Below are positions 3,289 through 25,421 of a stretch of 33,090 nucleotides of DNA, piece after piece (within the stretch, counting starts at the first letter, position 1; each line of letters begins with the position of its first letter). The notes beneath the pieces were generated by a model, which was not told the origin of the DNA, did not search any database, and worked only from the letters and a program-made list of their open reading frames with translations. Both the position numbers and the translations under genes were made by a program. The DNA is taken from positions 1-33,090 of the forward strand of contig DUPE01000171.1 of the NCBI GenBank assembly GCA_012838475.1. Direction: 5' to 3'. Source of the stretch: Clostridiaceae bacterium. GTDB taxonomy: Bacteria; Bacillota; Clostridia; Saccharofermentanales; DTU023.

Positions 3289-3367
3289 GATACCTCCTCA
3301 TAAAGTCATCTTGAATCTAATTGGACATTAGAATATTTTTACGGATCAAGATCCGTTATACCTGCAG

Positions 3368-4375: not shown

Positions 4376-4386
4376 AAATACTCCTT

Positions 4387-5688
4387 TCAGCATGCACGTT
4401 TTCCACGCGCAGGTGTTTTAATCAGATGGTCGGCACAGTCAATAATTGCATCTGTGTCACCTACCATACCTCCTTTTGTAATTACGGCCAGACCTTCATA
4501 AGAGCCACCTATTAAATAACCGAAGGAGCCGAGAGGTACTATTTCTGATTTTAATTCAAGCGCCTCAGCATGTAATTTCTCGTAAGCAGCAACTGTGATG
4601 TCTCCGCCACTGGTAAACATGCCTTGTATGGAAGTGTCTTGTTCCAGGAGAAGTTTGGCAATCTCGGCAAAACCCTCATTTATCTGTTCCGATGGTGTCA
4701 TCCCGTTAACATCGCTATATTGAGACAAATCGACCCTTCCTTTAGGATCAAGTCCTTCACTGATAATCAGCAGCAATGAACTATCTGTTTCTAATCCTTC
4801 TGAAACTACGCGCATAATTTCTTTATCCCGGCGATCAGGCTCTAATAGATCTCTTGTGCGCACTATGATCTGATAAGGAGAGCGTTTAGCTCGCAGCAAG
4901 GCAACCTGTGCTCCGACAACCGGATTGATACTGCCGACGACGCAGAGAACGCGGCGTGCTGCAACGGTTTGTGCAGGCGTGATAATCCGTTCCGCAAGTG
5001 TTGCAGTGAAGACGCCGGGATCGACAGCGATAAAGGGAACTTGTGATTTTATCACGGCATCAGCAATTTCCTCTATATCATTGCTTGTAATTGCATCACA
5101 AATAACTATTCTGATTCCTTCAGAGTGCATGTCTTTCAGCTTCGCCGCTACAAATTCATCTCCTTCACGCAAATCATTTAGTCCCACCCAGCCGAATTTC
5201 CGCTCGGTTTGTCGTTGAAAAATCTTGGCTGCATCTGAGGTATCAACCGGTGTCAGAGGATCCGTTGCCGCCTCTGTCAGATCCAGCGGCACACCGTTGA
5301 CCAGCAGATGCCCTCCTACGATTATGCGTCCAGCGGAAGGGAAACAGGCAACGACAATTGCCATGCGGTCATCACCGAGTGCGTCAAGAAAAGCATCAGT
5401 CTCCGAACCCAGGTTGCCGCGGAGAGTGCTGTCGATACGTTTGCTGTAAAGAGCCAATGCCGGCTCTCTCGCTGCCCTGACAGCATTATAGACCAGCCGA
5501 TAAGCCTCTTTGGCAGGAGTTGCCCGGCTTGATGTCGGCTTCATCAAAGCGTCGGACTCTGTTTGCCTTACCTGCTCTGGTGTGAGTTCACCAAAGAATG
5601 TCTCGGCAGAGAACCCGCGAGTAGTCAATTGTACACCATTCGCATTTGCACCGGTCAGGTCATCTGCTATGACAATCATTTGTACCAT
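4387..5688 (-). CDS. Four-carbon acid sugar kinase family protein (DUF1537; DtnK/OtnK-like)
   Basis: [16 protein letters not shown]-terminus, [22 protein letters not shown], and C-terminal [14 protein letters not shown] / KGGMVGD motifs; linked to PdxA2 and GntP. Confidence 0.88.
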
Positions 5689-6145: not shown

Positions 6146-7957
6146 ATGAGAGAATATCAGACAATATTTCCATTTATCAGCGCCAACAAGAGGCGTTATT
6201 TCTTGGGCATATTTGCCTTGCTTTTTGTCGATGCCGCGAACCTGCTGATTCCTCAGATAATGCGCATTTTTGCTGACTGGGCACAATTTGGTGAATTAAC
6301 ACGAGATCGCATAATCTGGGCTGCCGGCGTCATCCTTCTGCTTGGTCTAATGGTTGCGGTTGGGCGCTATGGCTGGCGCGTATATATTTTTGGCACTGCG
6401 CGCAGGCTGGAATATTGGCTGCGGGATAAATTATTCAAAAAGTATCTTAGTCTGGACGATCAGTTCTTTAATCATCATCGCACAGGGGATCTGATGGCCC
6501 ATGTGACCAATGATGTTCTAATGGTTCGCCACTCCATGGGCGGCGGCATCATTATGATTATTGATGCCGTCTTTATGACTTTGTTTACAGTTATTATGAT
6601 GATTTATACGGTTGGTCTGAGGACTTCTCTGGTTGCTTTATTAGCGTTGCCCTTTATTACTATTGTGGTGCTAGCTATGTCTAAGCCGTTGCATCAGCGC
6701 AGTCGGGAAGTGCAAGATACATTTTCTGAGCTATCTAATGAAGTACAAGAGAATATTTCCGGCATAAACAATATCAAAGCTTTCGGTATTGAAGACAGAA
6801 GATCCGCTGATTTCTACGAGGTGAACAACAAATATCAGGAGAAAAATATGGGGATGCTGCGTATTAGTGTCCTCTTTGACCCTTTGATTGAATTGATTTC
6901 CGGCATCTCTCTAGTTGTTTTTATTATTTACGGCATTAACCGCATACGTGAGGGCAGCCTCACATTGGGTGATTTCATCGCTGTGCTCAACTATCTGCGC
7001 ATGATGGTCTGGCCTCTAGTCGCTATTGGTCTGGTGGTTAACAGCTTTCAGCGCGGCATAGCTGCCATGGGTCGAATCAACGAGATTTTAGCTGTTCAGC
7101 CTAAAGTCAGTGAAGCAGATTCCCCCACGAGAATTGAGCAGGAAGATACCCAGGACCGGGATTCCAATCCCGGTCTCAATATTGAGTTCCGGGATGTTTG
7201 GTTCCGTTACGAAGAGAATTTACCCTGGGTTTTGCAGGGAGTGAGCTTTGAACTGAAGGACGCTCAGAGTTTGGCGATTCTAGGGCGGACAGGCACGGGC
7301 AAGAGCACAGTTTTGAACCTGTTGTTGCGACGTTATGATGTCAGCTCTGGGCAGATTCTTATTAATGGCACGGACATAAGAGATATTGCCTTCAAAGAAC
7401 TATATGAAAAAATTGCTTTCGTCGAGCAGGAAAGTTTCATTTTCTCACGTACGATAGCTGATAATATCGCTTTCAGCAGCGATGGTAATTATGATCCGGA
7501 GCGGGTTAGATTAGCGGCAGAGTTTTCACAGGTTGCCGGCGATATAGAGGCTATGCCGGATCAATACGATACCTGGGTTGGTGAGCGGGGGGTGACACTT
7601 TCCGGAGGGCAAAAACAGCGGCTGGCAATCGCACGCGCATACTATCAGGACTCAGATCTGCTGGTTTTGGATGACTCTCTTTCCGCAGTGGATACCAATA
7701 CGGAAAGAGAAATCCTTGATCATCTGGATGAGGTGCAGCGCGGTCTTATAATGGTTAGTCAGAGAGTGTCGACGGTGCAGCGGGCAGATCAGATCCTGGT
7801 GCTGGAAAGCGGGGTCATCTCGCAGAGGGGCAACCATAAGAGCCTCTTACAGGACACTGATGGCTTCTATGCCAGATTGTACCAAAGACAGCTTCTGGAG
7901 CGAAAGCTTGGTGAGGAAAGCGGGGAGGTGACGCAGCATGGCTCAAAGCAGCTATAA
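6146..7957 (+). CDS. ABC exporter half-transporter (heterodimer subunit 1, degenerate NBD)
   Basis: TM region plus NBD: GRTGTGKST, LSGGQKQR, LVLDDSLSAVD (Asp in place of catalytic Glu), and VSQRVST where H-loop His is replaced. Start reassigned from 6059 to ATG 6146 by alignment to family N-termini. Confidence 0.88.
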   Translation: MREYQTIFPFISANKRRYFLGIFALLFVDAANLLIPQIMRIFADWAQFGELTRDRIIWAAGVILLLGLMVAVGRYGWRVYIFGTARRLEYWLRDKLFKKYLSLDDQFFNHHRTGDLMAHVTNDVLMVRHSMGGGIIMIIDAVFMTLFTVIMMIYTVGLRTSLVALLALPFITIVVLAMSKPLHQRSREVQDTFSELSNEVQENISGINNIKAFGIEDRRSADFYEVNNKYQEKNMGMLRISVLFDPLIELISGISLVVFIIYGINRIREGSLTLGDFIAVLNYLRMMVWPLVAIGLVVNSFQRGIAAMGRINEILAVQPKVSEADSPTRIEQEDTQDRDSNPGLNIEFRDVWFRYEENLPWVLQGVSFELKDAQSLAILGRTGTGKSTVLNLLLRRYDVSSGQILINGTDIRDIAFKELYEKIAFVEQESFIFSRTIADNIAFSSDGNYDPERVRLAAEFSQVAGDIEAMPDQYDTWVGERGVTLSGGQKQRLAIARAYYQDSDLLVLDDSLSAVDTNTEREILDHLDEVQRGLIMVSQRVSTVQRADQILVLESGVISQRGNHKSLLQDTDGFYARLYQRQLLERKLGEESGEVTQHGSKQL

Positions 7958-9758
7958 GCATTTGGATGAGACTTGGCAACAGGATCGACGACCTGACCGC
8001 AAGACCTTAAAGCGTCTCTATAATTACGGTATACCCTATCTGAAGCAGTTTATTCTGGTTTTTATTCTTATCTTCGCTACAATTGGCATGACGCTGCTGC
8101 AACCTCGACTTATTCAGCTTCTGATCGACAATAATATCAGCATTCTTGTTAATCCGGCCACGAGCCAGGCGGAAAACAGTCAGGCCTTGACCGGGGCTCT
8201 GCAAATGGGTTTGCTTTATCTTGGGACAGTCGTGATCGCTTTTCTTTCGAGTTATGGACAGGCCTATCTCTTACAAAAAACGGGACAAAAAATTCTTAAA
8301 ACAATAAGACAGAGCTTATACGATCATATTCTGAAGCTGCCGATGACTTTTTTCGACAGCTATCCACAGGGGAGTCTGATGACCAGAGTTACCAATGATA
8401 CGGAAACCATCAATGAGATGTTTACATCGGTGCTCTCCAACAGTCTGCGCAGTTTCATCTCTCTGGCAGGGATAATCGTCATTATGTTCATAATGAATGT
8501 CAGTCTGGCTTCTTATGTTCTGCTCTTGCTCCCGTTCGTTATTATTATTTCAGTGATTTTTCGCCGTATTATTCGGAAGATTTACTTTGCTCAACGTCGG
8601 GCACTCTCCATTATCAACACCAAGCTTTCTGAGAACATCTCCGGTATGCGCACAATCCAGGTCTTTCACCGTCAAAAGCAGGTGGGCGCAGAGTTTGATG
8701 AAGTAAATGCGGAGCATCTGCGGCTGAGCCAGAAAGAGGTTACCTACTATGCTACCTATCGCCCCTTTATCGAGACAATTCGCGCTCTAGGCATAGCCGG
8801 GCTGATCTGGTTTGGCGGTCGTCAATATTTGGACGGTATCATTACTTTTGGTGTTCTCTATGCATTTATTGATTATATTCAGCGTTTCTTCCAGCCTATT
8901 TTGGAACTGGCGGAGACCTACAATATCATTCAGTCTGCCATGACTTCTTCACATAGAATCTTTCAGTTGTTTGATCAGGAGACTGAAGACGAAGGCGGCA
9001 ATGTTTCAGTTCCTGTAGAAGGCCTGAAGGGCAAAATAGAATTTAAAAATGTCTGGTTTGCTTATATTGAGGAGGAGTGGGTACTGCAAGACGTCTCTTT
9101 CACAGTTGAGCCGGGAGAGTTTGTAGCCTTTGTCGGTGCAACGGGTGCGGGAAAATCAACCATCATGCATTTGCTCTGCCGTTTTTACGACATCAATAAG
9201 GGGCAGATAATTCTGGACGGGACAGATATCAAAGAATACAATCTCCGAGGGCTGCGAGAAGCAATTGGCGTTGTGCAGCAGGAAGTTTTCTTATACTCGG
9301 GCAGCATAATTGAAAACATTAGCCTTAATCGTCCCAGGGTGAGCAAAGCAGATGCTAGAAGGGCCGCAGAAATAGTCAATGCCGATTCCTTTATCAATAA
9401 TTTGCCGGAGCGGTATGAGGAGCAGGTCAGCGAGCGAGGCAGTACTCTGTCGGCCGGGCAAAGGCAGCTCTTGTCCTTTGCCCGCACCATAGCAGCCAAA
9501 CCGTCCTTGTTAATATTGGATGAGGCGACTGCCAGCATTGACACCGAAACCGAGCTATTGATTCAGGACGCAATCAACAAGATGTCTTCGAATCGAAGTA
9601 TGGTTGCCGTGGCACACCGCATTTCTACCATAGCAGATGCCGATAAAATAATTGTTATGCATCGCGGTAGAATAGCAGAGCAAGGAACCAGAGAAGAACT
9701 GTTGGATCAAGACGGCCTGTTCAATGTGCTATATAAATTACAGTACGAAGGATACTGA
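7938..9758 (+). CDS. ABC exporter half-transporter (heterodimer subunit 2, canonical catalytic residues)
   Basis: 606 aa; GATGAGKST, LSAGQRQ, LLILDEATASID, AHRIST; overlaps the upstream subunit by 20 nt. Confidence 0.9.
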   Translation: MAQSSYKHLDETWQQDRRPDRKTLKRLYNYGIPYLKQFILVFILIFATIGMTLLQPRLIQLLIDNNISILVNPATSQAENSQALTGALQMGLLYLGTVVIAFLSSYGQAYLLQKTGQKILKTIRQSLYDHILKLPMTFFDSYPQGSLMTRVTNDTETINEMFTSVLSNSLRSFISLAGIIVIMFIMNVSLASYVLLLLPFVIIISVIFRRIIRKIYFAQRRALSIINTKLSENISGMRTIQVFHRQKQVGAEFDEVNAEHLRLSQKEVTYYATYRPFIETIRALGIAGLIWFGGRQYLDGIITFGVLYAFIDYIQRFFQPILELAETYNIIQSAMTSSHRIFQLFDQETEDEGGNVSVPVEGLKGKIEFKNVWFAYIEEEWVLQDVSFTVEPGEFVAFVGATGAGKSTIMHLLCRFYDINKGQIILDGTDIKEYNLRGLREAIGVVQQEVFLYSGSIIENISLNRPRVSKADARRAAEIVNADSFINNLPERYEEQVSERGSTLSAGQRQLLSFARTIAAKPSLLILDEATASIDTETELLIQDAINKMSSNRSMVAVAHRISTIADADKIIVMHRGRIAEQGTREELLDQDGLFNVLYKLQYEGY

Positions 9759-10076: not shown

Positions 10077-10835
10077 ATGACAGAAGAAGAAAGAACCGGC
10101 AAGAAAGATATTGATATGAAAGATTTGCCCCAAAAAGGCGAGAAATTCGTTCCTCAGCTTGAAACTCCGCTGCGCAAAAAAATTATTACAGTACCAGAAG
10201 CAATCTACAAGGCCTCCGGTTTAATGATCATGAGACGGAGAATAAAATCCGTACTTTTCACCACAGATATTGCCATCATGCGCAACAATAATGCCAATGC
10301 TCTTATGGTTGTATATCCCTTTACGCCGGAACTGATCATCACTCAGGCGGCCATGTCTGTCGCCAATGTTCCGGTCTTTGCCGGAGTTGGCGGGGGGACT
10401 ACAACGGGGAATCGTGCAATCGGCATAGCTTTTCAGGCAGAGTTGATGGGCGCAGCTGCAGTGGTAGTTAACAGCCCCACTTCTAATCTGGTAATTTCAG
10501 GTATGTGTCGCAGTGTGGATATTCCCGTCATAGCGACAGTAGCTTCCTTTTATGACGATATCGAAGGTAAAGTAAATGCAGGAGCCAGAATTCTAAACAT
10601 TTCCGGCTCCAAGGATACTCCGGAGCTGGTGCGAAAAGCCAGAGAGCTGGTGGGTCCTGAATATCCCATCATAGCAACAGGAGGTCCGACAGAAGACAGT
10701 ATTCTGGAAACTATAAGGGCAGGCGCCAACGCAATCACCTATACACCACCCAGCGTTGCGGAGATTTTCGCTGATACAATGCAACTTTATCGGGATCAGT
10801 CTGCTCAGAAGGCACTGGATCCCAAATTTGAGTAG
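10077..10835 (+). CDS. Uncharacterised TIM-barrel-like protein, resembling aldolase/ThiG-like folds
   Basis: 252 aa ORF with alternating beta/alpha pattern and phosphate-binding-like C-terminal motifs (IIATGGPTEDSILETIRAGANAITYTPPS). Confidence 0.65.
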   Translation: MTEEERTGKKDIDMKDLPQKGEKFVPQLETPLRKKIITVPEAIYKASGLMIMRRRIKSVLFTTDIAIMRNNNANALMVVYPFTPELIITQAAMSVANVPVFAGVGGGTTTGNRAIGIAFQAELMGAAAVVVNSPTSNLVISGMCRSVDIPVIATVASFYDDIEGKVNAGARILNISGSKDTPELVRKARELVGPEYPIIATGGPTEDSILETIRAGANAITYTPPSVAEIFADTMQLYRDQSAQKALDPKFE

Positions 10836-11022: not shown

Positions 11023-13512
11023 TCAGCTGTTTTCAGTCAGACCAAGCTCATGAGCCATAGCATCCCGCAGGCGATGCTTTTGGATTTTTCCGGCGGCATT
11101 CATAGGGAAGCTTTCGACGAAGACAATATAGCGCGGGACTTTGCTTTTTGCCAGACGTTCTCTGGTAAACCCGGTGAGATCATCCGGAGTTATAGCAGCT
11201 CCCTCTCTAGGGATGACACAGGCACAGACCTCTTCGCCGTATTGCCTGTCAGGGACCCCCACAACTTGCACGTCTCTGACATCGGGATGGGCATAGAGAA
11301 AATCCTCGATCTCCTTTGGGTAAACATTTTCACCTCCGCGAATTATCATGTCGCGGATGCGTCCGGTAATGCAGAAGTTCCCCTCGGGAGTCTGCTGGGC
11401 CAGGTCGCCGGTATGCAGCCAGCCATCATTATCAATGGCCTGTGCTGTCGCCGAGGGCATCTTGTAGTAACCCTTCATAATATTGTAGCCGCGAGCTACA
11501 AATTCTCCGTCTTGTCCCGGCGGCAATTCTGCTCCGGTCTCCGGATCGATGATGCGACATTCGACTTCCGGCAATGGGCGTCCCACGGTAGAAACGCGGA
11601 CTTCTATGGGGTCGTCAGCTGTACTCATGGTACAGCCTGGAGAGGATTCGGTCTGACCAAAGACGATAGTAATCTCAGTCAAATTCATCTTCTCCTGAAC
11701 TTGCCTCATTACACTGACCGGGCAAGGACTTCCGGCCATAATACCGGTCCTGAGCGAACTAAAATCAACTTGATCAAATTCCGGATGCTCCAGAATAGCG
11801 ATAAACATCGTGGGCACTCCGTTTACTGCAGTAATACGTTCCGTAGCGATAGCAGCGAGGGCAGTTCCGGCGTTGAAGTAGGGTACCGGATACATTGTAC
11901 TGCCATGGGTCATACTGGCGAGCATTGACAGCACCATGCCAAAGCAATGGAACATAGGAACTTGTATCAGTAAACGATCGGCTGTAGACAGATCCATGCG
12001 GTCGCCAATGCACTTGCCGTTATTGACAACGTTGTAGTGAGTAAGCATAACTCCCTTAGGAAAGCCGGTCGTCCCCGAGGTGTACTGCATATTGCAGACA
12101 TCATTAACATTGATGTTATGGGCGCGGCGCAAGACTTCCCGCTGTGGAACTTCTTCGTGCCTCTGTATGGCTTCGTTCCAGTTTTGGCAGCCTTGCATGT
12201 CGAAGCCTACCGTAATGATATTGCGCAAGAAAGGCAGGCGCCGGCTGTGCAGAGAAGCAGCAGGGTCTTTTCCCTTTAGCTCAGGACAAAGTTCCTGCAT
12301 GGTGGCAGCAAAATTTGAGTCGCGATTACGTTCGACCATGACCAGTGTGTGTGTGTCAGACTGGCGCAGGAGATACTCGGCTTCATATATTTTGTAATCA
12401 GTATTAACTGTGACCAGGACAGCACCGATCTTAGTTACTGCCCAAAAGGTGAGAAACCACTCCGGAACATTTGTCGCCCAGATGGCTACCTTATCGCCGG
12501 GTCTGACTCCCAAAGCGATAAACATGCGTGCTGCGCGGTCCACATCAGCACGAAAGTCGTTGTAACTGCGCGTATAATCTAGTGTCGTGTAGCGGATTAC
12601 CGTCTGATCCGGGAATATGTCTGCCATAGTGTCCAGCACTTGTGGCAGCGTTTGGTCAATCAGGCGGTCCTTTTTCCAAACATAACTGCCGGTATGACGG
12701 TTATTGCTGTAAAGATGGACGGGTGAGCGTACCGGGGCAGTAAACTGCGAAGTCCAGGCAGCAAAATGAACCAATACCACCTCCAGATCTCTAAGACCTG
12801 GCAGCCAGTCCGGCGACCATTCACAAGAAATAAAGCCATCGTAATTGATTGAACTCAAGGCGAGAAACACTTCGTCTAGAGGGAGATCACCTTCTCCTAC
12901 CAACCTTTGCTCGCTGCCGGCCGCATCTCGGAGATGGACATGACGGACATAAGCACCCAGCTCACGAATAGTTGTTTCGGGAGATTCACCGGCCTGACAG
13001 CTGTGTGGCACATCCCATAATGCCGCCAAATAGTCATCAGCAAAAGAGTCCAGAATCTGACACAGGGCTTTTGAATCAGCATAAGGACCGATGGTTTCTA
13101 CTAGCACTGTGATGCCGTATTCTTTAGCTATAGGCAGGATCTTCTCCAGCGCCGTACGAGTCGAAAAACCCTCATCATTATCAGGACGCAGAGTGCGTAC
13201 CCGCAAAGCAGGGCTCTGAATAGCGGCAGCAAATTCAATCGCATCGCGAAAACCTTGTTCGACTGCGAAATCAGTTGCTACGTCTTGCAGTTCACCGGCG
13301 GCGTCAACACAAGGGATTTCCAGCTGCAGATTAGCCAGCTGGCGTACAGCCGCACGTATCCTTTCGCGATCACTCAGTCCGAGCTGCCAGACAGCCTGCT
13401 GAGCGGTATCGTAATAGAGTTCAATGCCTTTATAGCCCAGCTGTCGGGCAAGATCTACAAAGTCGGACCAGCTATGTTCCTGCCAGCCTTTGGTAGAAAA
13501 TGAACGTTTCAT
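11023..13512 (-). CDS. Fusion: N-terminal sugar phosphate isomerase/epimerase-like TIM barrel plus C-terminal AMP-dependent acyl-CoA synthetase
   Basis: N-term about 275 aa retains AP-endonuclease-2-like positions (VLVETIG, LWDVPHS, VRHVHLRD, ISCEWSPDW). C-term has MQYTSGTTGFPKGVMLTH, VFGQTESSPG, DGWLHTGDL, GRIRDMIIRGGENVYPKEIE, AAGKIQKHRLR. Confidence 0.85.
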   Translation of the reverse strand: MKRSFSTKGWQEHSWSDFVDLARQLGYKGIELYYDTAQQAVWQLGLSDRERIRAAVRQLANLQLEIPCVDAAGELQDVATDFAVEQGFRDAIEFAAAIQSPALRVRTLRPDNDEGFSTRTALEKILPIAKEYGITVLVETIGPYADSKALCQILDSFADDYLAALWDVPHSCQAGESPETTIRELGAYVRHVHLRDAAGSEQRLVGEGDLPLDEVFLALSSINYDGFISCEWSPDWLPGLRDLEVVLVHFAAWTSQFTAPVRSPVHLYSNNRHTGSYVWKKDRLIDQTLPQVLDTMADIFPDQTVIRYTTLDYTRSYNDFRADVDRAARMFIALGVRPGDKVAIWATNVPEWFLTFWAVTKIGAVLVTVNTDYKIYEAEYLLRQSDTHTLVMVERNRDSNFAATMQELCPELKGKDPAASLHSRRLPFLRNIITVGFDMQGCQNWNEAIQRHEEVPQREVLRRAHNINVNDVCNMQYTSGTTGFPKGVMLTHYNVVNNGKCIGDRMDLSTADRLLIQVPMFHCFGMVLSMLASMTHGSTMYPVPYFNAGTALAAIATERITAVNGVPTMFIAILEHPEFDQVDFSSLRTGIMAGSPCPVSVMRQVQEKMNLTEITIVFGQTESSPGCTMSTADDPIEVRVSTVGRPLPEVECRIIDPETGAELPPGQDGEFVARGYNIMKGYYKMPSATAQAIDNDGWLHTGDLAQQTPEGNFCITGRIRDMIIRGGENVYPKEIEDFLYAHPDVRDVQVVGVPDRQYGEEVCACVIPREGAAITPDDLTGFTRERLAKSKVPRYIVFVESFPMNAAGKIQKHRLRDAMAHELGLTENS

Positions 13513-13532: not shown

Positions 13533-14966
13533 TTATCTGCTCTGTATACTTTCTTCGTTAGCGATTTTATTCAGAGCGTTGACATAAGCACGGATACTCG
13601 ATCCGATAATATCAGTTGACAAACCCGTTCCTGAAAACAACAGTCCTTTATAGCGCAGGCGTATGAAGGCCTCACCCAGAGCTTCATGTCCTTGAGTTAT
13701 GGCCCTTATCTGAAAATCATCCAGCTCAAAGCGATGTCCGACGATGCGTTCTATGGCACTGAAAGCGGCATCAATCGGTCCGTTACCGGAACCAAGCCCT
13801 TCTAAGATCCCGCCTTCCAACCCCAGTCGGATCTGACAGAAGGCACCGGCGCTGGTCTCAGTTACTGCGTAGTGTTCCAGAGTGTAGGTGGGACTTACCT
13901 GCATAGAAGTTTCAGCCACGATTACGTCCAGTTCATGCAAACTGACGGATTTGCCTGCGGCGATTTCTTGAAAGGCTTCATAAACTCTGAGCTGGTCTTC
14001 CGCATTGAGTGTATAGCCCAACTGCTGAATCGCCGCATTGATAGTGTCGGCACCATCTTCGCTGGTGAAAACGTGTTCAGATTCCTCAGCTGTAGCTTCG
14101 GGCAGACCTTTTCCGCTTACTGCTGCCGGGCTGCGTTCTGAATCCGGTGTTGCCAGTACCAGAATCTGATCTGCCAGATGTTCCGCTAAAGTCGCCTCCA
14201 GCCTCGTTTTAATCGGCAAATCACTGCGTAGCCTTTCCAGGCGTGCAAGATTAATAGTATTGCATATGCCTGACGCACCGATAACGCTGGTTTTGAGTAC
14301 AGAAATGCCTGCATCCAGCGCTGCCAGTGAATTAGCTTCAGCCAAACTTACATTGCTGCCACATTGGACTCCGACAGGCACCTCCTGCAAACGAGGTATA
14401 TTTGCCAATTGTCTTTCAATGAAGGCGCTGAACTCGTAAGGTAGGTATCCATCCTGGCGATCACAGAAGGTGACACTGGTTGCCCCGGCGTCCAGAGCAG
14501 TATTAACCACCTCTTGCAGGAAATCTTCCCTGGCTCGGGTAGCATCTTCAGCTATAAACTCTACATCATTTGTGTGGTTGCGAGCCGCCTCAATCAGGGT
14601 TCTCGTCAACTCCAGCAGCTGCGACGGCTTCAAATGCAGCTCATACTCCATCATGACTGTTGACACAGGCAGCATCACCTGCAAACGGGCATCAGGCGTC
14701 TTCTCCAGCGCAGCGCAGGTCTGCTCAAGTTGTTCGGCGGTCACACCAACCGGAACGGCCAATCTGCTTTGCTTGAGTACAGCGGCAAGAGACTTAAGCA
14801 AAAGACTGTCCTCCTGTAGATTCTCGATTGGAGGGCAATCGATAATGTCAACACCCAGCTGATCAAATAGTCGGGCTATCTTGATTATTTTATTGAAACC
14901 CAAACCCGCATCAGCCAAGTGAGAGATTTCACGTAAAGTTACATCAGATATGTTCACAGTTTTCAT
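13533..14966 (-). CDS. LeuA-like protein (divergent HMGL-like domain plus alpha-isopropylmalate synthase regulatory domain)
   Basis: C-terminal LeuA-dimer-like domain (GSGNGPIDAAFSAIERIVG..GLSTDIIGSSIRAYVNALNKI). N-terminal TIM barrel with EFIAEDATRAREDFLQEVVNTALDAGATSVTFCDRQDGYLPYEF. Start reassigned from 15191 to ATG 14966 (AAGGGAG Shine-Dalgarno). Confidence 0.82.
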   Translation of the reverse strand: MKTVNISDVTLREISHLADAGLGFNKIIKIARLFDQLGVDIIDCPPIENLQEDSLLLKSLAAVLKQSRLAVPVGVTAEQLEQTCAALEKTPDARLQVMLPVSTVMMEYELHLKPSQLLELTRTLIEAARNHTNDVEFIAEDATRAREDFLQEVVNTALDAGATSVTFCDRQDGYLPYEFSAFIERQLANIPRLQEVPVGVQCGSNVSLAEANSLAALDAGISVLKTSVIGASGICNTINLARLERLRSDLPIKTRLEATLAEHLADQILVLATPDSERSPAAVSGKGLPEATAEESEHVFTSEDGADTINAAIQQLGYTLNAEDQLRVYEAFQEIAAGKSVSLHELDVIVAETSMQVSPTYTLEHYAVTETSAGAFCQIRLGLEGGILEGLGSGNGPIDAAFSAIERIVGHRFELDDFQIRAITQGHEALGEAFIRLRYKGLLFSGTGLSTDIIGSSIRAYVNALNKIANEESIQSR

Positions 14967-15107: not shown

Positions 15108-15114
15108 CACTTCA

Positions 15115-15409
15115 ACGGTAGAGACGAAGACGGTGCTATGCTCAACTGTGCACAGAGAAACGGTGTATGCTGAGAACCGGGGACAGCGCATAGTGACCTA
15201 TCCCTTCTGAACCGGAGTGCTGAAATTGCAGCGACTGAATTGACGATTGATTGTCCGGTCGTCGTTGCCGAGATTAGGTGCTTCCGCGCAGGCTGCGTTA
15301 GTGCCGGAGGTTTGATGGAACCTCGCTGAGTGGTCGGCATTGAGCCGGCAATCTGAGTGGTACCGCGGGTCACGCCCGTCTCAGGCAAAGCTTGAGACGG
15401 GCGTTTTTT
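15115..15409 (+). ncRNA. T-box riboswitch leader 1
   Basis: GACGAAGA stem I start pairing with CCGgTCGTC, ACAGAGA, GGTG distal motif, CCGGAG, canonical T-box GAGTGGTACCGCGGG (15355-15369), then an intrinsic terminator. Confidence 0.92.
15373..15409 (+). terminator. Regulated intrinsic terminator of T-box 1
   Basis: Perfect 11-bp CGCCCGTCTCA/TGAGACGGGCG stem followed by TTTTTT. Confidence 0.88.
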
Positions 15410-15455: not shown

Positions 15456-17765
15456 ATGAGCCAACAAAACACCACTATCTTGATCAGGGATGTCGCACAC
15501 CGGCTGCGTGCCATGAGAGAACTCTCAGGCTATACCACCGCCGATATGGCTGCGAAAATCGGCACAACAGTTGAGGCATATGAGGATTATGAACAAGGCA
15601 TAAAGGATTTCCCCTTTTCCTTCCTGCACAAGGCCGCCAATGCCCTGAATCTGGACTTGACTGAACTGTTGGAAGGTCGTGACGCCACAACTTTGAGTGA
15701 CTATCAGCTCATTCGTCGTGGCAAAGGTCAGATAACTTCCGGCGGTGAAGGTGTAGAGATTTTTAGTCTGGCACCCTGGTTTCGTGACAAGCTGGCCGAG
15801 CCGTATTACTGCGTATACGAATACGAAGAAGCCTTGCAGGACAGGCCTATCGATCTAGTTACTCACAGTGGACAGGAGTTTAACCTGATTCTTAAGGGCA
15901 GCCTTAAGGTACAGATTGACGGGCATTTTGAAGTTCTCGATGAAGGCGATTCAATATATTACAACTCCGCCACCCCGCATGGCATGATTGCTGTCGGAGG
16001 CTCTGATTGTGTTTTTGTCGCTGTTGTGATTCCCGGGCCGGAGGAAACACCTGTTCCTTCAGTATATAAGGCTACGAAGGAAAGTGTTTTAAAGCCTCCT
16101 ACCCGTCTTGTCGCCGCACCGAATCCGGCAGCAAGATTCGTTCAGGTCGATGAAGACGAGCAAGGTAATCCAGTTGCCATTAAATACAGCAATGAGGAGA
16201 GCTTTAATTTTGCCTATGATGTTGTAGACTTCATTGCAGAGAAGGATCCCAACCGCTTAGCCATGCTGCATGTCGGCGTCGATCATCGGGAGCGTCGCTT
16301 TGATTTCAGGGATATAAGTCGCGAGTCGAATCGCGCTGCCAATTATTTCTATTCGCTTGGCATCCGGCGTGGCGATCATGTGATGATTTGCCTGAAGCGC
16401 CATTACCAGTTCTGGCCGATCCTCATAGCTCTGCACAAACTGGGTGCAACAGCTATTCCAGCCACCGACCAATTGCATAAACAGGATTTTGTCTATAGGT
16501 TTGAAGCGGGTAAGGTTAAAGCCATCATCTGTACGACAGATAATGAAACAGCCGTATTCGCAAAACAAGCCGGAGAAATTTGTCCTACTGTTGAGCATTT
16601 TATACTGGTTGACGGCAATGACAGCGGCAAAACCCTGGAAGGTTGGCTGGACTTTAATACTGAGGTTCAGCGATATCGCTCTGTCTATGATAGACCAGAC
16701 AATTCGCCTTGTGGCAGCGAGCCCGCCCTGGCATTTTTCACCTCGGGTACGACAGGGTATCCCAAGCTGGCTGTCCATGACCATAAGTATGCTCTTGGCC
16801 ATTACCTTACTGCCAGCCACTGGCATGGCGTAGAGCCGGATGGTTTGCATTTTACGGTTGCCGATACCGGCTGGGGTAAAGCCTTGTGGGGTAAAATTTA
16901 CGGGCAATGGCTATGTGCCGCACCGGTCTTCACTTATGACTTCGACCGCTTCGACGCAGATGACATGTTAACCATGCTGTCCCGCTATCCCATCACCAGT
17001 TTTTGTGCTCCTCCTACGATTTATCGCATGCTGATCAGAGAAGATCTCACTGCCTACGATTTGAGATCGGTCCGTGAGGCCACCAGCGCCGGGGAAGCAC
17101 TTAATCCTGAGGTTTTTAATCAGTTCTTCCAGGCTACAGGTGTCTCGATTAGAGAAGGCTTTGGACAAACCGAAACGACACTTTCTGTCGCAACTTTCAA
17201 AGGCACGGCGGCAAAACCGGGATCCATGGGCAAACCATCTCCATTGTATAAGATGAGTATAATTCGTCCGGACGGCACAAAAGCCAAGACGGGTGAGCCC
17301 GGCGAAATTGTTATCGATACCGGTGATGGCGCGCCCTGCGGACTCTTCCAGGGATATTATGATGAACAGTTCAAGACTGATCAGGTTTGGCATGATGGGA
17401 TCTATCACACAGGCGATCAGGCCTGGGAAGATGAAGACGGTTTCTATTGGTTTGTTGGCCGTAACGACGATATTATCAAGTCTTCCGGCTATCGTATAGG
17501 ACCCTTTGAAATCGAAAACGTCATCATGGAGTTGCCATATGTCCTCGAGTGCGGTGTCTCAGCAGTCCCCGACGAGCTGCGCGGGCAAGTGGTCAAGGCG
17601 AGCATTGTCCTGATTCTCGGCAAGGAAAAGAGTGAAGAGCTGAAAAAGGAGATCCAGAACTATGTGAAGGATAAGACCGCTCCTTACAAATATCCTCGTG
17701 TTATTGTCTTCCGTGACAGCCTGCCCAAGACTGTCAATGGTAAGATCCAGCGCAGCCAACTGTAA
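15456..17765 (+). CDS. XRE-family HTH / cupin / AMP-dependent acyl-CoA synthetase fusion protein (paralog 1)
   Basis: HTH LRAMRELSGYTTADMAAKIGTTVEAYEDYEQG; cupin HSGQEFNLILKGSLKVQI..DEGDSIYYNSATPHGM; ligase FFTSGTTGYPKLAVHDH, EGFGQTETT, YHTGDQAWEDEDG, C-terminal PKTVNGKIQRSQL. Confidence 0.9.
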   Translation: MSQQNTTILIRDVAHRLRAMRELSGYTTADMAAKIGTTVEAYEDYEQGIKDFPFSFLHKAANALNLDLTELLEGRDATTLSDYQLIRRGKGQITSGGEGVEIFSLAPWFRDKLAEPYYCVYEYEEALQDRPIDLVTHSGQEFNLILKGSLKVQIDGHFEVLDEGDSIYYNSATPHGMIAVGGSDCVFVAVVIPGPEETPVPSVYKATKESVLKPPTRLVAAPNPAARFVQVDEDEQGNPVAIKYSNEESFNFAYDVVDFIAEKDPNRLAMLHVGVDHRERRFDFRDISRESNRAANYFYSLGIRRGDHVMICLKRHYQFWPILIALHKLGATAIPATDQLHKQDFVYRFEAGKVKAIICTTDNETAVFAKQAGEICPTVEHFILVDGNDSGKTLEGWLDFNTEVQRYRSVYDRPDNSPCGSEPALAFFTSGTTGYPKLAVHDHKYALGHYLTASHWHGVEPDGLHFTVADTGWGKALWGKIYGQWLCAAPVFTYDFDRFDADDMLTMLSRYPITSFCAPPTIYRMLIREDLTAYDLRSVREATSAGEALNPEVFNQFFQATGVSIREGFGQTETTLSVATFKGTAAKPGSMGKPSPLYKMSIIRPDGTKAKTGEPGEIVIDTGDGAPCGLFQGYYDEQFKTDQVWHDGIYHTGDQAWEDEDGFYWFVGRNDDIIKSSGYRIGPFEIENVIMELPYVLECGVSAVPDELRGQVVKASIVLILGKEKSEELKKEIQNYVKDKTAPYKYPRVIVFRDSLPKTVNGKIQRSQL

Positions 17766-17839: not shown

Positions 17840-17844
17840 AACTA

Positions 17845-18127
17845 TAACGGCTTTGATGGAGAGTTCGTCGAGCCCGGATCTGTTACAGAGAATGCGGGAA
17901 ATGCACATTGGTGCCAGCTGAGAACCGCGACAGAGAGGCTAGACGGAGGTCGCTCCGGAGCTGGAGAGCAGAAAGCGTCTAAACGAGACGTCAGTAGATC
18001 TCTTCCGATTTGACCGCGTTAAGATCCAAGACCGACAGGTCTGAGAGGCGGCTGTTAAGTCGCAACTTGAGTGGTACCGCGGGTTCAGCCCGTCTCAAGA
18101 AGTAATTATCTTGAGACGGGCTTTTTT
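17845..18127 (+). ncRNA. T-box riboswitch leader 2
   Basis: GATGGAGAG, CAGAGA (17886-17891), GGTG, CCAGCT/AGCTGG stem, CCGGAGC, GAA + candidate specifier, AGTAG, CCG, canonical GAGTGGTACCGCGGG (18069-18083) and terminator. Confidence 0.92.
18088..18127 (+). terminator. Regulated intrinsic terminator of T-box 2
   Basis: Perfect 13-bp GCCCGTCTCAAGA/TCTTGAGACGGGC stem followed by TTTTTT. Confidence 0.9.
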
Positions 18128-18200: not shown

Positions 18201-20510
18201 ATGGTAATCAACGCACTTGACTACAAAATTCAGCTTATGGGGCAGCGCATCCGTGAGCTGCGCGAAATAGAGGGGCTTAGTGTTGAGGAAATGGCCGAGC
18301 TGACTGACGTTTCTGCAGACCATTATCTGGCCTGTGAAGCAGGCAGGGCCGACCTCACTTTTGCCTTTATTTATCGCTGTGCGCTTGCTTTAAATGTAAA
18401 CGCGACTGAGATTATAGAAGGCACAACTCCCAGGCTTGACCTCTACACAGTGACGCGCAGAGGAGAAGGACAGGAAATTAATAACGCTCACGGCATGACT
18501 TATTTTAGTTTGGCGGGTCCCTTTAAGAATCGTATCGCGGAGCCGTTACTGGTTTGTGCCTCTTACGACCCTGAGGCACAGCATGAGGCGATGCAACTGA
18601 CTACTCACAAGGGACAAGAATGCGATATCGTTATCAGCGGCCAGCTAAAAGTACAGGTAGGAGAGCACGAGGAGATCCTCGGCCCGGGCGACAGTATCTA
18701 CTTCAACTCAGAATACCCTCATGGTGAGCGGGCTGTTAATGGCGAGGACTGCTATTTTTATGCTATTGTGCTCAATCCTATGGAGGAGGTTTTCGATGCC
18801 AGGCCGCAGGCTAGCCGTATTCCGGCTCCTAGACCGGCGGCTATTCAGACCGTTGAGCCTCTCTGGTCTCCTTATATTGACGTGGAAGAAAATGAGAACG
18901 GTACGCCTGTCTCTATTCGCTACAAGAATACCGAAAATTTTAATTTTGTCTACGACATATTAGATGTTATGGCAGAACGGGAGCCCGATCGACTGGCAAT
19001 GCTGCATCTGGATCGCAATAAGACTGAACGGAGATTCACTTTTGCTGACATCAGCCGCCTCTCTTGCCGCTGTGCTAATTATTTCAAAGCATTGGGTATT
19101 GAGGCCGGCGACAAAGTAATGCTTTGTCTTAAACGTCACTATCAGTTTTGGCCTATACTGATGGGTCTAAACAGGATTGGTGCGATCGCCGTTCCTGTCA
19201 CAAATCTCCTCATGGAAAAAGACTTCGATTATTATTTTTCGAAAGCGGAAATCAGCACTATCATCTCTACTGCTGATGGCGACACTATAACGGAAGCTGA
19301 GCAGGCCAGCGTGAGGTATCCTGGATTAAAGCTTAAAATAGCTGTGGAAAGCCAGGGTAATAGCATTCCTGATAATCTGCCCGGGGATTGGCGCGATTTT
19401 AACTCGGAGTTCAGCCTGTATCGTTCTTCCTGTCCTCGCAGTAAGGATACGCCCGGCGGAAAAGATAATATGCTGTTTTTCTTTACTTCAGGAACTACCG
19501 GTTATCCTAAAGTTGCCATGCACAACTTCACCTATCCACTGGGTCACTTCCATACAGCCCGCTACTGGCACAATATTGATCCGGAAGGACTGCATATTAC
19601 TGTTGCCGACACCGGTTGGGCTAAAGCTCTGTGGGGCAAGCTATACGGGCAATGGCTTTGTGGAGCTGCTGTTATGGTCTACGATTTTGATCGCTTTGAT
19701 GCAGTTGACCTTCTCCCCATGATCAGCAAATACCGGGTAACTACCTTTTGTGCGCCTCCTACAATTTGGCGCCTGATGATGAAAGAAAACCTTTCCAATT
19801 ATGACCTAAGCTCCATCAAACACGCATCTACAGCAGGTGAGGCACTTAATCCTGAGGTCTTCCGTCAGATTGAGTCTCAAACCGGTATCCGCATTATGGA
19901 GGGTTTCGGCCAGTCAGAATCTACTGTCATGGTCGGCAATCTTACAGGAGATCAACACAAATTCGGCTCGATGGGCAAACCTGTCACTGTTTATCCTATT
20001 GATATTGTCGGTGAAGACGGTAAACCTGTATCAACCGGTGAAACGGGCGAGATCGTCATTCGGACCCGGCCCGGAGATATCTGTGGTCTCTTTACCGGTT
20101 ATTACCGTGACATTGAACAGACAGAAAAGGTCTGGCATGAAGGTCTCTACCATACAGGTGACACAGCATGGCGCGATGAAGACGGCTACTATTGGTATGT
20201 CGGCAGATTGGATGATGTTATTAAGTCTTCAGGTTACCGTATTGGGCCTTTCGAGATTGAATCCGTAATCATGGAGTTGCCCTATGTGCTCGAATGCGGC
20301 GTCAGTCCTGAGCCGGATCCTGAACGCGGTCAGCTTGTCAAAGCCAGCATCGTGTTGACTGCCGGCATCGAGGAAACTGAAGAACTTAAAGAAGAGATTC
20401 AAGATTATGTCAAACATAAGACGGCGCCGTATAAATACCCTCGCATCGTTGCCTTCCGCGATTCTTTGCCAAAGACAACCAGCGGCAAGATTATGCGTAA
20501 TCAACTGTAA
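18201..20510 (+). CDS. XRE-family HTH / cupin / AMP-dependent acyl-CoA synthetase fusion protein (paralog 2)
   Basis: 769 aa, same length and domain order as paralog 1; HTH IRELREIEGLSVEEMAELTDVSADHYLACEAG, cupin HKGQECDIVISGQLKVQV..YFNSEYPHG, ligase FFTSGTTGYPKVAMHNF, PKTTSGKIMRNQL; GGGAGG upstream of ATG. Confidence 0.9.
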   Translation: MVINALDYKIQLMGQRIRELREIEGLSVEEMAELTDVSADHYLACEAGRADLTFAFIYRCALALNVNATEIIEGTTPRLDLYTVTRRGEGQEINNAHGMTYFSLAGPFKNRIAEPLLVCASYDPEAQHEAMQLTTHKGQECDIVISGQLKVQVGEHEEILGPGDSIYFNSEYPHGERAVNGEDCYFYAIVLNPMEEVFDARPQASRIPAPRPAAIQTVEPLWSPYIDVEENENGTPVSIRYKNTENFNFVYDILDVMAEREPDRLAMLHLDRNKTERRFTFADISRLSCRCANYFKALGIEAGDKVMLCLKRHYQFWPILMGLNRIGAIAVPVTNLLMEKDFDYYFSKAEISTIISTADGDTITEAEQASVRYPGLKLKIAVESQGNSIPDNLPGDWRDFNSEFSLYRSSCPRSKDTPGGKDNMLFFFTSGTTGYPKVAMHNFTYPLGHFHTARYWHNIDPEGLHITVADTGWAKALWGKLYGQWLCGAAVMVYDFDRFDAVDLLPMISKYRVTTFCAPPTIWRLMMKENLSNYDLSSIKHASTAGEALNPEVFRQIESQTGIRIMEGFGQSESTVMVGNLTGDQHKFGSMGKPVTVYPIDIVGEDGKPVSTGETGEIVIRTRPGDICGLFTGYYRDIEQTEKVWHEGLYHTGDTAWRDEDGYYWYVGRLDDVIKSSGYRIGPFEIESVIMELPYVLECGVSPEPDPERGQLVKASIVLTAGIEETEELKEEIQDYVKHKTAPYKYPRIVAFRDSLPKTTSGKIMRNQL

Positions 20511-21589: not shown

Positions 21590-22666
21590 CTAGTCGAATC
21601 TGGGAACCGTGGAGACCCAGCCATAAGCGTCTTCAACTCTTTGCTTTTGAATTCCTGTCAAAACATCATAGAACATCTGTGCTACCGGACCAATTTCATT
21701 ATTGTTAATAACGATGCTTTGATCCTGCCAGGTTAGTTCGCCGACTGGAGAGATAACAGCTGCCGTCCCGGTGCCGAAGGCTTCCTGCAGTCTGCCTTGA
21801 GCACTGGCCTCAAAGAGCTCTGTGACAGGGATTTTTCGTTCTTCAACAGACAAGCCTTTGTCGCGTGCCAATTGCAGGATTGAGTCTCGGGTGATTCCGG
21901 GCAGGATAGTATCTCCCAGCTCTGCCGTTACCAGCTTGTCATCGATTACGAACATCATGTTCATAGCCCCTACTTCTTCAACGTATTTTTGTTCGCGTCC
22001 GTCCAGCCAAAGAACCTGTTGATAACCCGCTTCCATCGCTTCTTTTGTCGCCTTAAAGCTGGCAGCGTAATTGCCACCGGTCTTTGCTCTGCCCATGCCG
22101 CCTTTGACTGCGCGGACATAATGGGTCTCAATCAGGATACGGATAGGCTTGATGCCCTCAGGATAGTAGGAGCCGGAGGGGGAACAAATTACATAATAGA
22201 TGAATCTGGAAGCGGAGTGAGCGCCGAGACTGGCACCATCAGCAATCATGGTCGGTCGTAGATAGAGAGATGTGCCCTCGCTGGTCGGGACCCAATCGCG
22301 GTCGAGGTCAACCAGACGGCAGATGGCCTCATATTGCAGCTCTATGTCAAGCTCAGGCATGCAGGTACGGATTGCACTCTGGTTCATCCTGCGTGCATTG
22401 TCGCGTATCCTGAAGAGTCCAACTTCGCCGTTGTCAAGCGCATATGCTTTAGCTCCCTCGAAGATCTCCTGCCCGTAGTGCAGGACGGGAGAGGCGGGGT
22501 CTAAAGAGAGATTCTGATAAGGTATTATGCGGGGGGCATGCCAGCCGAGATCTTTTTCGAATTCGACTACAAACATATGATCAGTGAAAATTGATCCGAA
22601 CCCCAGTTTGCTTTCGTCGACGGGTTTTATCTTTGGATTTTCGTTCTTTGTTACGCTGATTTTCAT
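21590..22666 (-). CDS. ilvE: Branched-chain amino acid aminotransferase
   Basis: 358 aa; YGQEIFEGAKAYAL, MNQSAIRTCMPELD, GGNYAASFKATKEAMEAGYQQVLWLDGREQKYVEEVGAMNMMFV, GTGTAAVISPVG. Confidence 0.92.
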   Translation of the reverse strand: MKISVTKNENPKIKPVDESKLGFGSIFTDHMFVVEFEKDLGWHAPRIIPYQNLSLDPASPVLHYGQEIFEGAKAYALDNGEVGLFRIRDNARRMNQSAIRTCMPELDIELQYEAICRLVDLDRDWVPTSEGTSLYLRPTMIADGASLGAHSASRFIYYVICSPSGSYYPEGIKPIRILIETHYVRAVKGGMGRAKTGGNYAASFKATKEAMEAGYQQVLWLDGREQKYVEEVGAMNMMFVIDDKLVTAELGDTILPGITRDSILQLARDKGLSVEERKIPVTELFEASAQGRLQEAFGTGTAAVISPVGELTWQDQSIVINNNEIGPVAQMFYDVLTGIQKQRVEDAYGWVSTVPRFD

Positions 22667-22829: not shown

Positions 22830-23372
22830 TTAAACATTGACACAGTCGGCTCCCCGTTGAAGTGCGACTTCGTTAATCTCGACAAGATTAGCTTTTTTGC
22901 CGGTGAAAATATTGCGGAGCATATCAACGACAGTCTCAAATTTGAGCAGTTTAGTTGCTTCAATGAAGGCTCCCAGCATAACCATATTGGCGACACGCAA
23001 GTTGCCAAGTTCCGCTGCGATTTCCTGCGAAGGGACATAGACTGCTCTGACGTCATTGCGCTCTACTTTGCGCTCGATAATAGATTCATTAACCAGAATA
23101 AGGCCGCCCGGCTTAACAGCTGATTCAAACTTGTCCAGAGAGGGAAGATTCATGGCAATCAGCTCGCTGGGCTCCAACACGATCGGCGAGATGATTTCTC
23201 CGTCGGAGATGACAACATTACAGTTGGCTGTGCCGCCCCTCATTTCAGGTCCGTAAGAGGGCAGCCAGCTGACATTTAGACCTTCAGACATTGCTGCTTC
23301 AGCCATCGTTGTTCCTATAGACATTACGCCTTGCCCACCAAAGCCGGCAATTACAATTTCGTTATAAGACAT
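22830..23372 (-). CDS. 2-oxoacid:ferredoxin oxidoreductase gamma subunit (VorC/KorC-like)
   Basis: [57 protein letters not shown]. Start reassigned from 23447 to ATG 23372. Confidence 0.88.
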
Positions 23373-23374
23373 CT

Positions 23375-24124
23375 TTAGGCCTCCTCTTTTGTCACGTCGC
23401 GGTAGACGCCGAGAGGAAATACCGGGAGCATATTCTCTTTGACCCATTCCAGAGACTCGACCGGCGTCAAACCCCAGTTGGTCGGGCAGGTGGAGAGCAC
23501 TTCAATCATGGTAAACCCTAGTCCCGCAATTTGCAGTTCAAAGGCTTTCTTGATTGATCTTTTTGCCTTCATTACGCTGGCGGGCGTGGTAACCATGACC
23601 CGCTCAATATATGCCGCGCCATCGATTGTTGCCAGCATCTCAGACATACGGATCGGAGAGCCATAGTGTCCCGGATCTCTGCCCAGAGGAGCGGTCGTGG
23701 CTTTCTGACCTACTAAAGTAGTAGGAGCCATCTGGCCGCCCGTCATTCCGTAGATCGCATTGTTCACGAAGATGACAGTAATTTTTTCACCGCGCATGGC
23801 GGAATGCACTGCTTCAGCAATGCCTATGGCAGCCAGATCCCCATCGCCTTGATAAGTAAAGACTACATGCTGGGGCAGAACTCGTTTGATTCCGGTTGCT
23901 ACTGCAGGTGCGCGACCATGCGCTGCCTCCTGCATATCACAGTTAAAATAATCATAGGCAAATACTGCGCAGCCGACAGGCGCGACTCCCACTGCTTTTC
24001 CTAAGACATCAAGTTCTTCTAAAGTCTCTCCCACCAGTTTATGAACAATGCCGTGGGTACATCCGGGGCAATAGTGCAGCTCAGCGTCGGTAAGCCCTTT
24101 AGTTTTTTGATATACAATAGCCAT
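23375..24124 (-). CDS. 2-oxoacid:ferredoxin oxidoreductase beta subunit (TPP-binding; VorA/KorB-like)
   Basis: 249 aa; YCPGCTHGIVHKL, TYQGDGDLAAIGIAEAVHSAMRGEKITVIFVNNAIYGMTGGQMAPTT. Confidence 0.9.
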   Translation of the reverse strand: MAIVYQKTKGLTDAELHYCPGCTHGIVHKLVGETLEELDVLGKAVGVAPVGCAVFAYDYFNCDMQEAAHGRAPAVATGIKRVLPQHVVFTYQGDGDLAAIGIAEAVHSAMRGEKITVIFVNNAIYGMTGGQMAPTTLVGQKATTAPLGRDPGHYGSPIRMSEMLATIDGAAYIERVMVTTPASVMKAKRSIKKAFELQIAGLGFTMIEVLSTCPTNWGLTPVESLEWVKENMLPVFPLGVYRDVTKEEA

Positions 24125-24127
24125 TTC

Positions 24128-25195
24128 TTACCTCCCCAGCGCTTTCTTAGCCGCTTCTGCCACTTCATAAGGAGTGGGTATGATTCCACCTGCGCTGCCA
24201 ACAAAAGAAACTGGCCTGGCTCCTTTGACGGCGATGCGGACATCATCAATCATCTGTCCTGTGTTCATTTCGACGGTGACAACAGCTTTAACGCTGTCCT
24301 GGGCTGCAATTTTATACAGCGCATCATAGGGATAAGGCCAGACAGTAATCGGTCGGAAAACGCCAGCCTTGATTCCATCCTCAGCCAGAAGTCTGACTGC
24401 GGCTCGTGCCAGCCGGGCCGGTGTGCCGAAGGCGACAAAGATTACTTCGGCGTCTTCGGTATCATTGGTTTCATAGCGCTGCTCACTCTCTGTGACGCGG
24501 GCGTATTTTTCTTCCAGGCGTATATTATGCTGATTACAGGCATCAGGATCGATGAAGAGGGAGTTAATTATATTTGGAAGACGCTTATTTTTGGTTCCGG
24601 TTGTAGCCCAGGGCTTCTCGGGCAAGTCTTCCGGTGCAATCGCAGGCCTTTTCCACTCTACCGGTTCCATCATCTGTCCAATCATACCGTCGAGGAGCAT
24701 CATAACGGGCATGCGGTATTTATCTGCCAGGTCGAAAGCCTCCTGCATAAGGTCTACTACTTCCTGAATATTTGCCGGTGCGAACACAATCAAGCGATAG
24801 TCACCGTGACCGCCGCCGCGGGTGGCTTGGAAATAGTCACCCTGCGCAGGCTGAATCGTTCCCAGGCCTGGGCCTCCGCGCATGACATTGACTATCACGC
24901 CGGGGAGCTCCGCCCCGCACATATAAGAGATACCCTCTTGTTTTAGGCTGACTCCCGGTGAAGAAGACGACGTCATTACTCTGGCACCCGCTCCTGTGGC
25001 TCCATATACCATATTAATGGCAGCAACTTCAGACTCGGACTGCAGGAATACGCCTCCTGCTTTCGGCATATGCAGTGACATATACTCAGGTATTTCGCTT
25101 TGCGGGGTGATTGGATAACCAAAATAACAGCGACATCCGGCCCTGATAGCAGCTTCGGCTATTGCTTCATTGCCTTTCCATAATTCTTTGCTCAT
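24128..25195 (-). CDS. vorB: 2-oxoacid:ferredoxin oxidoreductase alpha subunit (3-methyl-2-oxobutanoate dehydrogenase VorB-like)
   Basis: 355 aa; KGNEAIAEAAIRAGCRCYFGYPITPQSEIPEYMS, GATGAGARVMTSSSSPGVSLKQEGISYMCGAELPGVIVNVMRGGPGLG. Confidence 0.88.
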   Translation of the reverse strand: MSKELWKGNEAIAEAAIRAGCRCYFGYPITPQSEIPEYMSLHMPKAGGVFLQSESEVAAINMVYGATGAGARVMTSSSSPGVSLKQEGISYMCGAELPGVIVNVMRGGPGLGTIQPAQGDYFQATRGGGHGDYRLIVFAPANIQEVVDLMQEAFDLADKYRMPVMMLLDGMIGQMMEPVEWKRPAIAPEDLPEKPWATTGTKNKRLPNIINSLFIDPDACNQHNIRLEEKYARVTESEQRYETNDTEDAEVIFVAFGTPARLARAAVRLLAEDGIKAGVFRPITVWPYPYDALYKIAAQDSVKAVVTVEMNTGQMIDDVRIAVKGARPVSFVGSAGGIIPTPYEVAEAAKKALGR

Positions 25196-25208: not shown

Positions 25209-25421
25209 CTATTCACGTTCCACGGTAATTACGGAATCGGGGCACATACGTGCGCAGTGGGCGCAGCCGGTGCATTTTTCCATTTCGTCTATCCTGACGG
25301 GGTGGTATCCCTTCCTATTCGTGTAATCCCTGTCTAAGTAAATAATCCGAGGTGGGCAGACATAGACACAAAGTTCGCAGCCTTTGCACAAATCCTCTCT
25401 GAATCTTACATATCCAGCCAT
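25209..25421 (-). CDS. 4Fe-4S dicluster ferredoxin-like delta subunit of the VOR/KOR complex
   Basis: CKGCELCVYVCP and CTGCAHCARMCP motifs; GGAGG precedes ATG at 25421 (track start 25457 is likely too far upstream). Confidence 0.88.
   Translation of the reverse strand: MAGYVRFREDLCKGCELCVYVCPPRIIYLDRDYTNRKGYHPVRIDEMEKCTGCAHCARMCPDSVITVERE

Follow-up and report, generated by a model that had tools for sequence, protein, structure and literature searches.

A degenerate LeuA homologue as a probable leucine-sensing subunit of a neighboring acyl-CoA ligase

Introduction

Rumen and gut anaerobes have long been known from their physiology to use isobutyrate, isovalerate, and 2-methylbutyrate as amino acid precursors. 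The role of such short branched acids in these organisms is also treated elsewhere (PMC7356843). Among the ligases that may act on them, MbcS of S. aureus accepts 2-methylbutyrate and isobutyrate but takes isovalerate poorly (PMC10026030). Given this substrate preference, isovalerate would call for a ligase of its own. In the literature that we found, neither the assignment of ligases to individual acids nor the control of the branched-acid route is settled. A described solution to the problem of feedback control in another pathway is HisZ, which descends from an aminoacyl-tRNA synthetase. HisZ, the regulatory subunit of the short-form ATP phosphoribosyltransferase HisG_S, is noncatalytic, binds the end-product amino acid, and makes another enzyme subject to feedback by it (PMC9734150).

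Here, we describe a homologue of 2-isopropylmalate synthase (IPMS; LeuA) encoded in a stretch of 33,090 nucleotides from a clostridial genome (hereafter, the window), together with its relatives, collectively referred to as LeuA-like proteins to distinguish them from true LeuA.

Results

The LeuA-like gene of the window (Table 1) opens with an ATG at 14966 and closes with a stop codon ending at 13533. The mechanically drawn open reading frame reaches 15191 through start codons further upstream; we place the start at 14966 because a good ribosome site, GGAAGGGAG, precedes it and because the relatives align from there. Pfam searches of the 477-aa product detected an HMGL-like domain at residues 4 to 234 and a LeuA_dimer domain at residues 344 to 468, and IPMS structures were the top Foldseek matches of its AlphaFold model (pLDDT, 90.7; pTM, 0.65), the best being 3rmj with an E value of 5e-21. 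A GSGNGP segment is common to the protein and MtIPMS, with a nonsignificant E value. The LeuA equivalog model TIGR00973 matched in two pieces scoring 118 and 97 bits, far short of its cutoff of 598.7.

In addition to the window, we collected 80 relatives from Clostridia, Lentisphaeria, and Eggerthellaceae; a comparison set of 87 LeuA-like proteins and 31 true LeuA proteins was examined for residue conservation, and a class-wide sample of 291 genomes included 36 carriers, among them the window genome. In a tree obtained with a quick search method and rooted on E. coli LeuA, the LeuA-like proteins form a single clade (support, 100) nested within clostridial LeuA. Thus, the domain composition, with an HMGL-like barrel and LeuA_dimer, the LeuA fold, and the position in the tree establish that the protein is a member of the LeuA family by descent. 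The earliest-branching members are those of loci L146 and L147, whose genomes still contain LeuA and IlvC, and which are candidate stepping stones from a duplication to a pseudoenzyme. The nearest relative found for the window genome is Mageeibacillus sp. UBA1046 (L002; Clostridia, Oscillospiraceae according to NCBI), the two halves of its LeuA-like protein being 73 to 84% identical to that of the window. At 7386 to 8886 of that locus, some 110 additional bases and a shift of frame interrupt the LeuA-like reading frame near residue 165, which may represent either an assembly error or a genuine disruption.

Table 1. Positions of the features of the window considered in this study
Feature	Positions	Strand	Evidence
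Partner gene: fusion of a xylose-isomerase-like TIM barrel (residues 1-270) with an AMP-forming acyl-CoA ligase (residues 285-825)	11023..13512	minus	Domain searches
LeuA-like protein (477 aa; predicted catalytically dead 2-isopropylmalate synthase homologue)	13533..14966	minus	ORF, Pfam, alignment, structure match
LeuA_dimer (putative leucine-binding regulatory) domain, residues 344-468, intact	13563..13937	minus	Pfam E 1.3e-27
Degenerate DRE-TIM barrel, residues 1-265	14172..14966	minus	Pfam HMGL-like E 1.7e-30; Foldseek best hit 3rmj
Lys225 (Lys in 85/87 LeuA-like proteins, Glu in 31/31 true LeuA)	14292..14294	minus	Alignment
QCG replacing HxH metal pair, residues 201-203	14358..14366	minus	Alignment
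LRE replacing LRD, residues 11-13, metal Asp lost	14928..14936	minus	Alignment
T-box leader with ATC (Ile) specifier, upstream of first XRE-cupin-ligase	15112..15386	plus	Rfam 65.2 bits, E 6.8e-14, below gathering score 93
XRE-HTH + cupin + MbcS-like acyl-CoA synthetase 1 (putative Ile branch, by T-box)	15456..17765	plus	Profile searches
T-box leader with GTC (Val) specifier, upstream of second XRE-cupin-ligase	17844..18100	plus	Rfam 68.4 bits, E 7.5e-15, below gathering score 93
XRE-HTH + cupin + MbcS-like acyl-CoA synthetase 2 (putative Val branch, by T-box)	18201..20510	plus	Profile searches
Branched-chain amino acid aminotransferase (BCAT)	21590..22666	minus	TIGR01123 388 bits, cutoff 250
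2-Ketoisovalerate:ferredoxin oxidoreductase (Vor) subunits gamma, beta, alpha (VorB)	22830..25195	minus	VorB 541 bits, cutoff 399

The original prediction had described a LeuA-like protein without the HxH motif, which was borne out and in fact understated the loss, as the metal Asp, both His residues, the Asn, the GER motif, and the GIHQDG region are all gone. The motifs that it had read as SDVTLREISHL and VQCGSNVSLAEANSLAAL are indeed those of the protein. An alignment with N. meningitidis IPMS (3rmj) displays the change from LRD to LRE and sets Gln201 and Gly203 against H204 and H206, the metal-binding His pair. Furthermore, the GER/N240 loop of 3rmj is deleted or replaced, and the shortening that the prediction had noticed around GIHQDG corresponds to the absence of the entire subdomain that bears this motif; the C-terminal regulatory domain, as anticipated, is intact.

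The same pattern extends to the family. The catalytic Arg, the metal Asp, both His residues, and the Asn are each present in 31/31 true LeuA proteins, whereas among the 87 LeuA-like proteins the catalytic Arg is kept in 38, the second metal His in none, the metal Asp gives way to Glu, Gln, Val, and other residues, the Asn is replaced throughout, and GER has been deleted. No other set of conserved metal ligands turned up at the ancestral site in the 87 members, where these positions are variable; the original prediction would have counted such ligands, together with demonstrated condensation activity, against itself. The barrel retains D8, S102, Y108, E136, D141, and R144, and it has acquired a new and nearly fixed lysine, Lys225, where strand 7 of the barrel ends; this lysine is replaced by Ala or Thr in L146 and L147. 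Judged from its predicted residues, the protein lacks the features that define the enzyme and should not be annotated as a 2-isopropylmalate synthase.

The distribution of constraint along the protein is inverted with respect to true LeuA. Mean identity is 62% in the barrel and 44% in the regulatory domain of true LeuA, versus 39% and 63%, respectively, in LeuA-like proteins, and the regulatory domain is the better conserved of the two in 3,734 of 3,736 pairs of LeuA-like proteins versus 11 of 464 pairs of true LeuA. In particular, positions conserved in LeuA are kept in at least 90% of LeuA-like proteins at 20/108 sites of the barrel, 3/41 of the linker subdomain, and 13/19 of the regulatory domain. 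Such an inversion is the signature of a protein retained for its effector domain. Among close relatives, dN/dS is about 0.02 to 0.33 in the barrel and 0.01 to 0.23 in the regulatory domain, values indicating that the protein is under purifying selection and is not decaying. Sequencing error, chance, and decay were considered as origins of the lost motifs and are ruled out by these values and by the recurrence of the same losses in 87 members.

The gene next to that of the LeuA-like protein, which in the window starts 20 bp downstream, encodes the TIM-ligase fusion in 80/80 loci; in the class-wide sample, the two genes adjoin in 35/36 carriers, the exception ending at a contig edge. In the same sample, the ligase occurs without a LeuA-like protein in 58/93 ligase-bearing genomes, and therefore it does not need this protein to work. 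In all 20 lone ligases (L103 to L122), the TIM domain carries an E-D-H-H-E site without variation, and none of the 20 lacks any of E139, D167, H193, and E231, versus 35/75 linked ligases missing at least one of these residues; the linked ligase of the window retains all four. Since one branch separates lone from linked ligases, this relaxation of the TIM domain amounts to a single phylogenetic contrast and is suggestive. A PDB search with the ligase did not fix its substrate. An Amidohydro_2 protein often follows the pair (25/80 loci; e.g., L049, 13874 to 14704). At 10077 to 10835 of the window lies a gene for a 252-aa protein with no Pfam match, weakly resembling KDPG aldolase, which also adjoins the module in L002.

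No T-box was detectable ahead of the window's own LeuA-like protein-ligase pair. Rfam T-box leaders lie just upstream of the LeuA-like gene in L007 (118 bits), L011 (122 bits), and L028 (110 bits), as well as upstream of the lone ligase of L122 (122 bits), and a T-box motif occurs less than 400 nt ahead of the LeuA-like gene in 38/77 loci. Specifiers were called by a fixed-geometry reading, which also called 3 to 5% of shuffled leaders. Among the 33 called leaders of LeuA-like genes, into which a small number of genuine leuA leaders collected as controls may have slipped, 27 have a Leu specifier (CTC or CTG); Leu specifiers were also seen for leaders of LeuA-like genes in the Rfam alignments. 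Ligase leaders carry CTC (Leu) in 7 of 11 calls, lone ligases likewise pointing to Leu, and of the 17 calls for leaders of MbcS-type ligases, about 14 are Val (GTA or GTC) or Ile (ATC). In a genome-wide T-box survey, the specifier codon agreed with function in all verified cases (PMC2494555). The predicted specifiers place one ligase each with Leu, Ile, and Val. The fusion of regulator-like domains (XRE-HTH and cupin) to a metabolic enzyme, in tandem behind two T-boxes, is unusual in itself.

BCAT, Vor, and the XRE-cupin ligases accompany the LeuA-like gene in about 25 to 29 of 80 loci, frequently as a single operon, and the window also contains a butyrate kinase gene (26370 to 27446). A small P-loop (MinD/Mrp-like) ATPase gene beside the Vor genes (25406 to 26119; recurring in 23/80 loci) perhaps serves iron-sulfur loading of Vor. 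Further away, at 1933 to 5688, genes for a GntP-type transporter, a PdxA-like protein, and a DUF1537-like kinase form, as read from sequence, an apparent cluster for the utilization of four-carbon acid sugars.

In terms of genome counts uncorrected for relatedness, IlvC is present in 4/36 carriers of the LeuA-like protein versus 150/255 other genomes (p = 4e-8), and LeuA is present in 2/36 versus 89/255 (p = 2e-4). No difference from the rest is seen in genomes that have the ligase and no LeuA-like protein (IlvC in 29/58). In the window genome (1.88 Mb, 92% complete), profile searches gave no match to IlvC, IlvD, or Aconitase_C. A second, true LeuA or a CimA was looked for in the same 92% complete genome and rejected, the only PF00682 match being the LeuA-like protein itself.

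Discussion

We consider it likely that the LeuA-like protein is a pseudoenzyme acting as a leucine-sensing regulatory subunit of the adjacent acyl-CoA ligase, in a pathway that makes branched-chain amino acids from branched acids. The starting acids would be isovalerate, 2-methylbutyrate, and isobutyrate, and reductive carboxylation would lead from them to the branched amino acids. In the leucine branch, the fusion ligase would activate isovalerate, its presumed substrate, Vor would reductively carboxylate isovaleryl-CoA to 2-ketoisocaproate, and BCAT would aminate the latter to leucine. Leucine is expected to bind at the LeuA_dimer interface and to alter the barrel, which may contact the ligase, probably at its N-terminal TIM domain; the leucine-bound protein would then presumably inhibit the ligase rather than activate it, much as HisZ passes histidine control on to HisG_S. 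Where a T-box is present, transcription would answer uncharged tRNA-Leu, and the LeuA-like protein would add a fast leucine feedback. In genomes that lost the feedback step of LeuA, end-product control could thus be restored, supplying the feedback that the branched-acid route is missing. On balance, we lean toward a scenario in which a dead LeuA feedback module was re-attached to an acyl-CoA ligase, bringing leucine feedback to the isovalerate route after the loss of acetolactate-based synthesis, with the fused TIM domain of the ligase decaying once the LeuA-like protein takes over.

Of the two possibilities raised by the original prediction, the amino acid-sensing pseudoenzyme gains from the site loss, the inverted constraint, the leucine T-boxes, and the leucine-pathway context, whereas changed chemistry does not, as no reaction is indicated in spite of the new Lys225. 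The occurrence of the ligase without the LeuA-like protein and the lack of a detectable T-box at the window's own pair nevertheless weigh against a sensor subunit. A barrel that is under selection and holds a nearly invariant Lys225 is more than a simple spacer would require and also speaks against it, and it is possible to imagine that the protein is still an enzyme with metal-independent chemistry, for instance, through Lys225 as a Schiff base or acid-base residue, on an acyl-CoA or 2-oxoacid of the pathway. The retention of D8, S102, Y108, E136, D141, and R144 would agree with this, but the catalytic Arg is unconserved, the metal site is variable, GER and GIHQDG are deleted, the barrel changes far more quickly than the regulatory domain, the reverse of true LeuA, and Lys225 itself is replaced in the two earliest-branching members; we therefore regard continued catalysis as unlikely. 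Quite unlikely, too, is a constitutive activator or stabilizer of the ligase, that is, an assembly factor that would use the leucine domain for dimerization only. The near-obligate linkage with the ligase and the relaxed TIM domain of ligases that have a LeuA-like partner are consistent with such a role, but the regulatory domain is the most conserved part, keeping LeuA-conserved positions beyond the needs of dimerization, and leucine T-boxes link the pair to leucine.

The gene set of the window could also run in the direction of branched-chain amino acid fermentation, which weighs against a sensor subunit in a synthetic pathway. BCAT, Vor, and butyrate kinase occurring together are what a catabolic cluster yielding branched acids would contain, and the LeuA-like protein would then sense leucine to turn it on. 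This reading appears very improbable: a T-box induces when its cognate amino acid runs short, as suits a synthetic role, the ligases belong to the AMP-forming class, and the carriers are mostly devoid of IlvC and LeuA. We thus retain the leucine-sensing subunit of a biosynthetic ligase as the preferred reading.

Our literature search, with subscription papers outside its scope, returned no isopropylmalate synthase pseudoenzyme, nothing relevant under the name of the regulatory domain, and nothing on the linked ligase with T-boxes. The proposed LeuA-derived feedback device would be widespread and is apparently undescribed. In evolutionary terms, it would be a clear example of an allosteric domain that survives the loss of its catalytic site and acquires a new target, and the early-branching members, in genomes that still contain LeuA and IlvC, allow this course to be traced.

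Compared with LeuA (PF00682 plus PF08502; NmIPMS, 3rmj; MtIPMS, 1sr9/3fig), the LeuA-like protein shares the domain order, the barrel fold, and an intact LeuA_dimer domain; different from LeuA, it has no metal or catalytic site, no GER motif, and no GIHQDG region, scores below the equivalog cutoff, and shows inverted constraint. MbcS of S. aureus is the best NCBIfam match of the two XRE-cupin ligases of the window (413 and 399 bits); however, these are below the cutoff (850), fused to HTH and cupin domains, and T-box controlled, and the ligase linked to the LeuA-like protein is from another, PRK12583-like subfamily. In its proposed role, the LeuA-like protein resembles HisZ, with which it has in common the loss of the catalytic site, the retention of the effector domain, and a constant partner enzyme of the same pathway, as reflected in the gene linkage (80/80 and 35/36) and the leucine T-box. 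Different from HisZ, it has an unrelated fold and derives from LeuA rather than HisRS, and the target of its putative regulation would be an acyl-CoA ligase.
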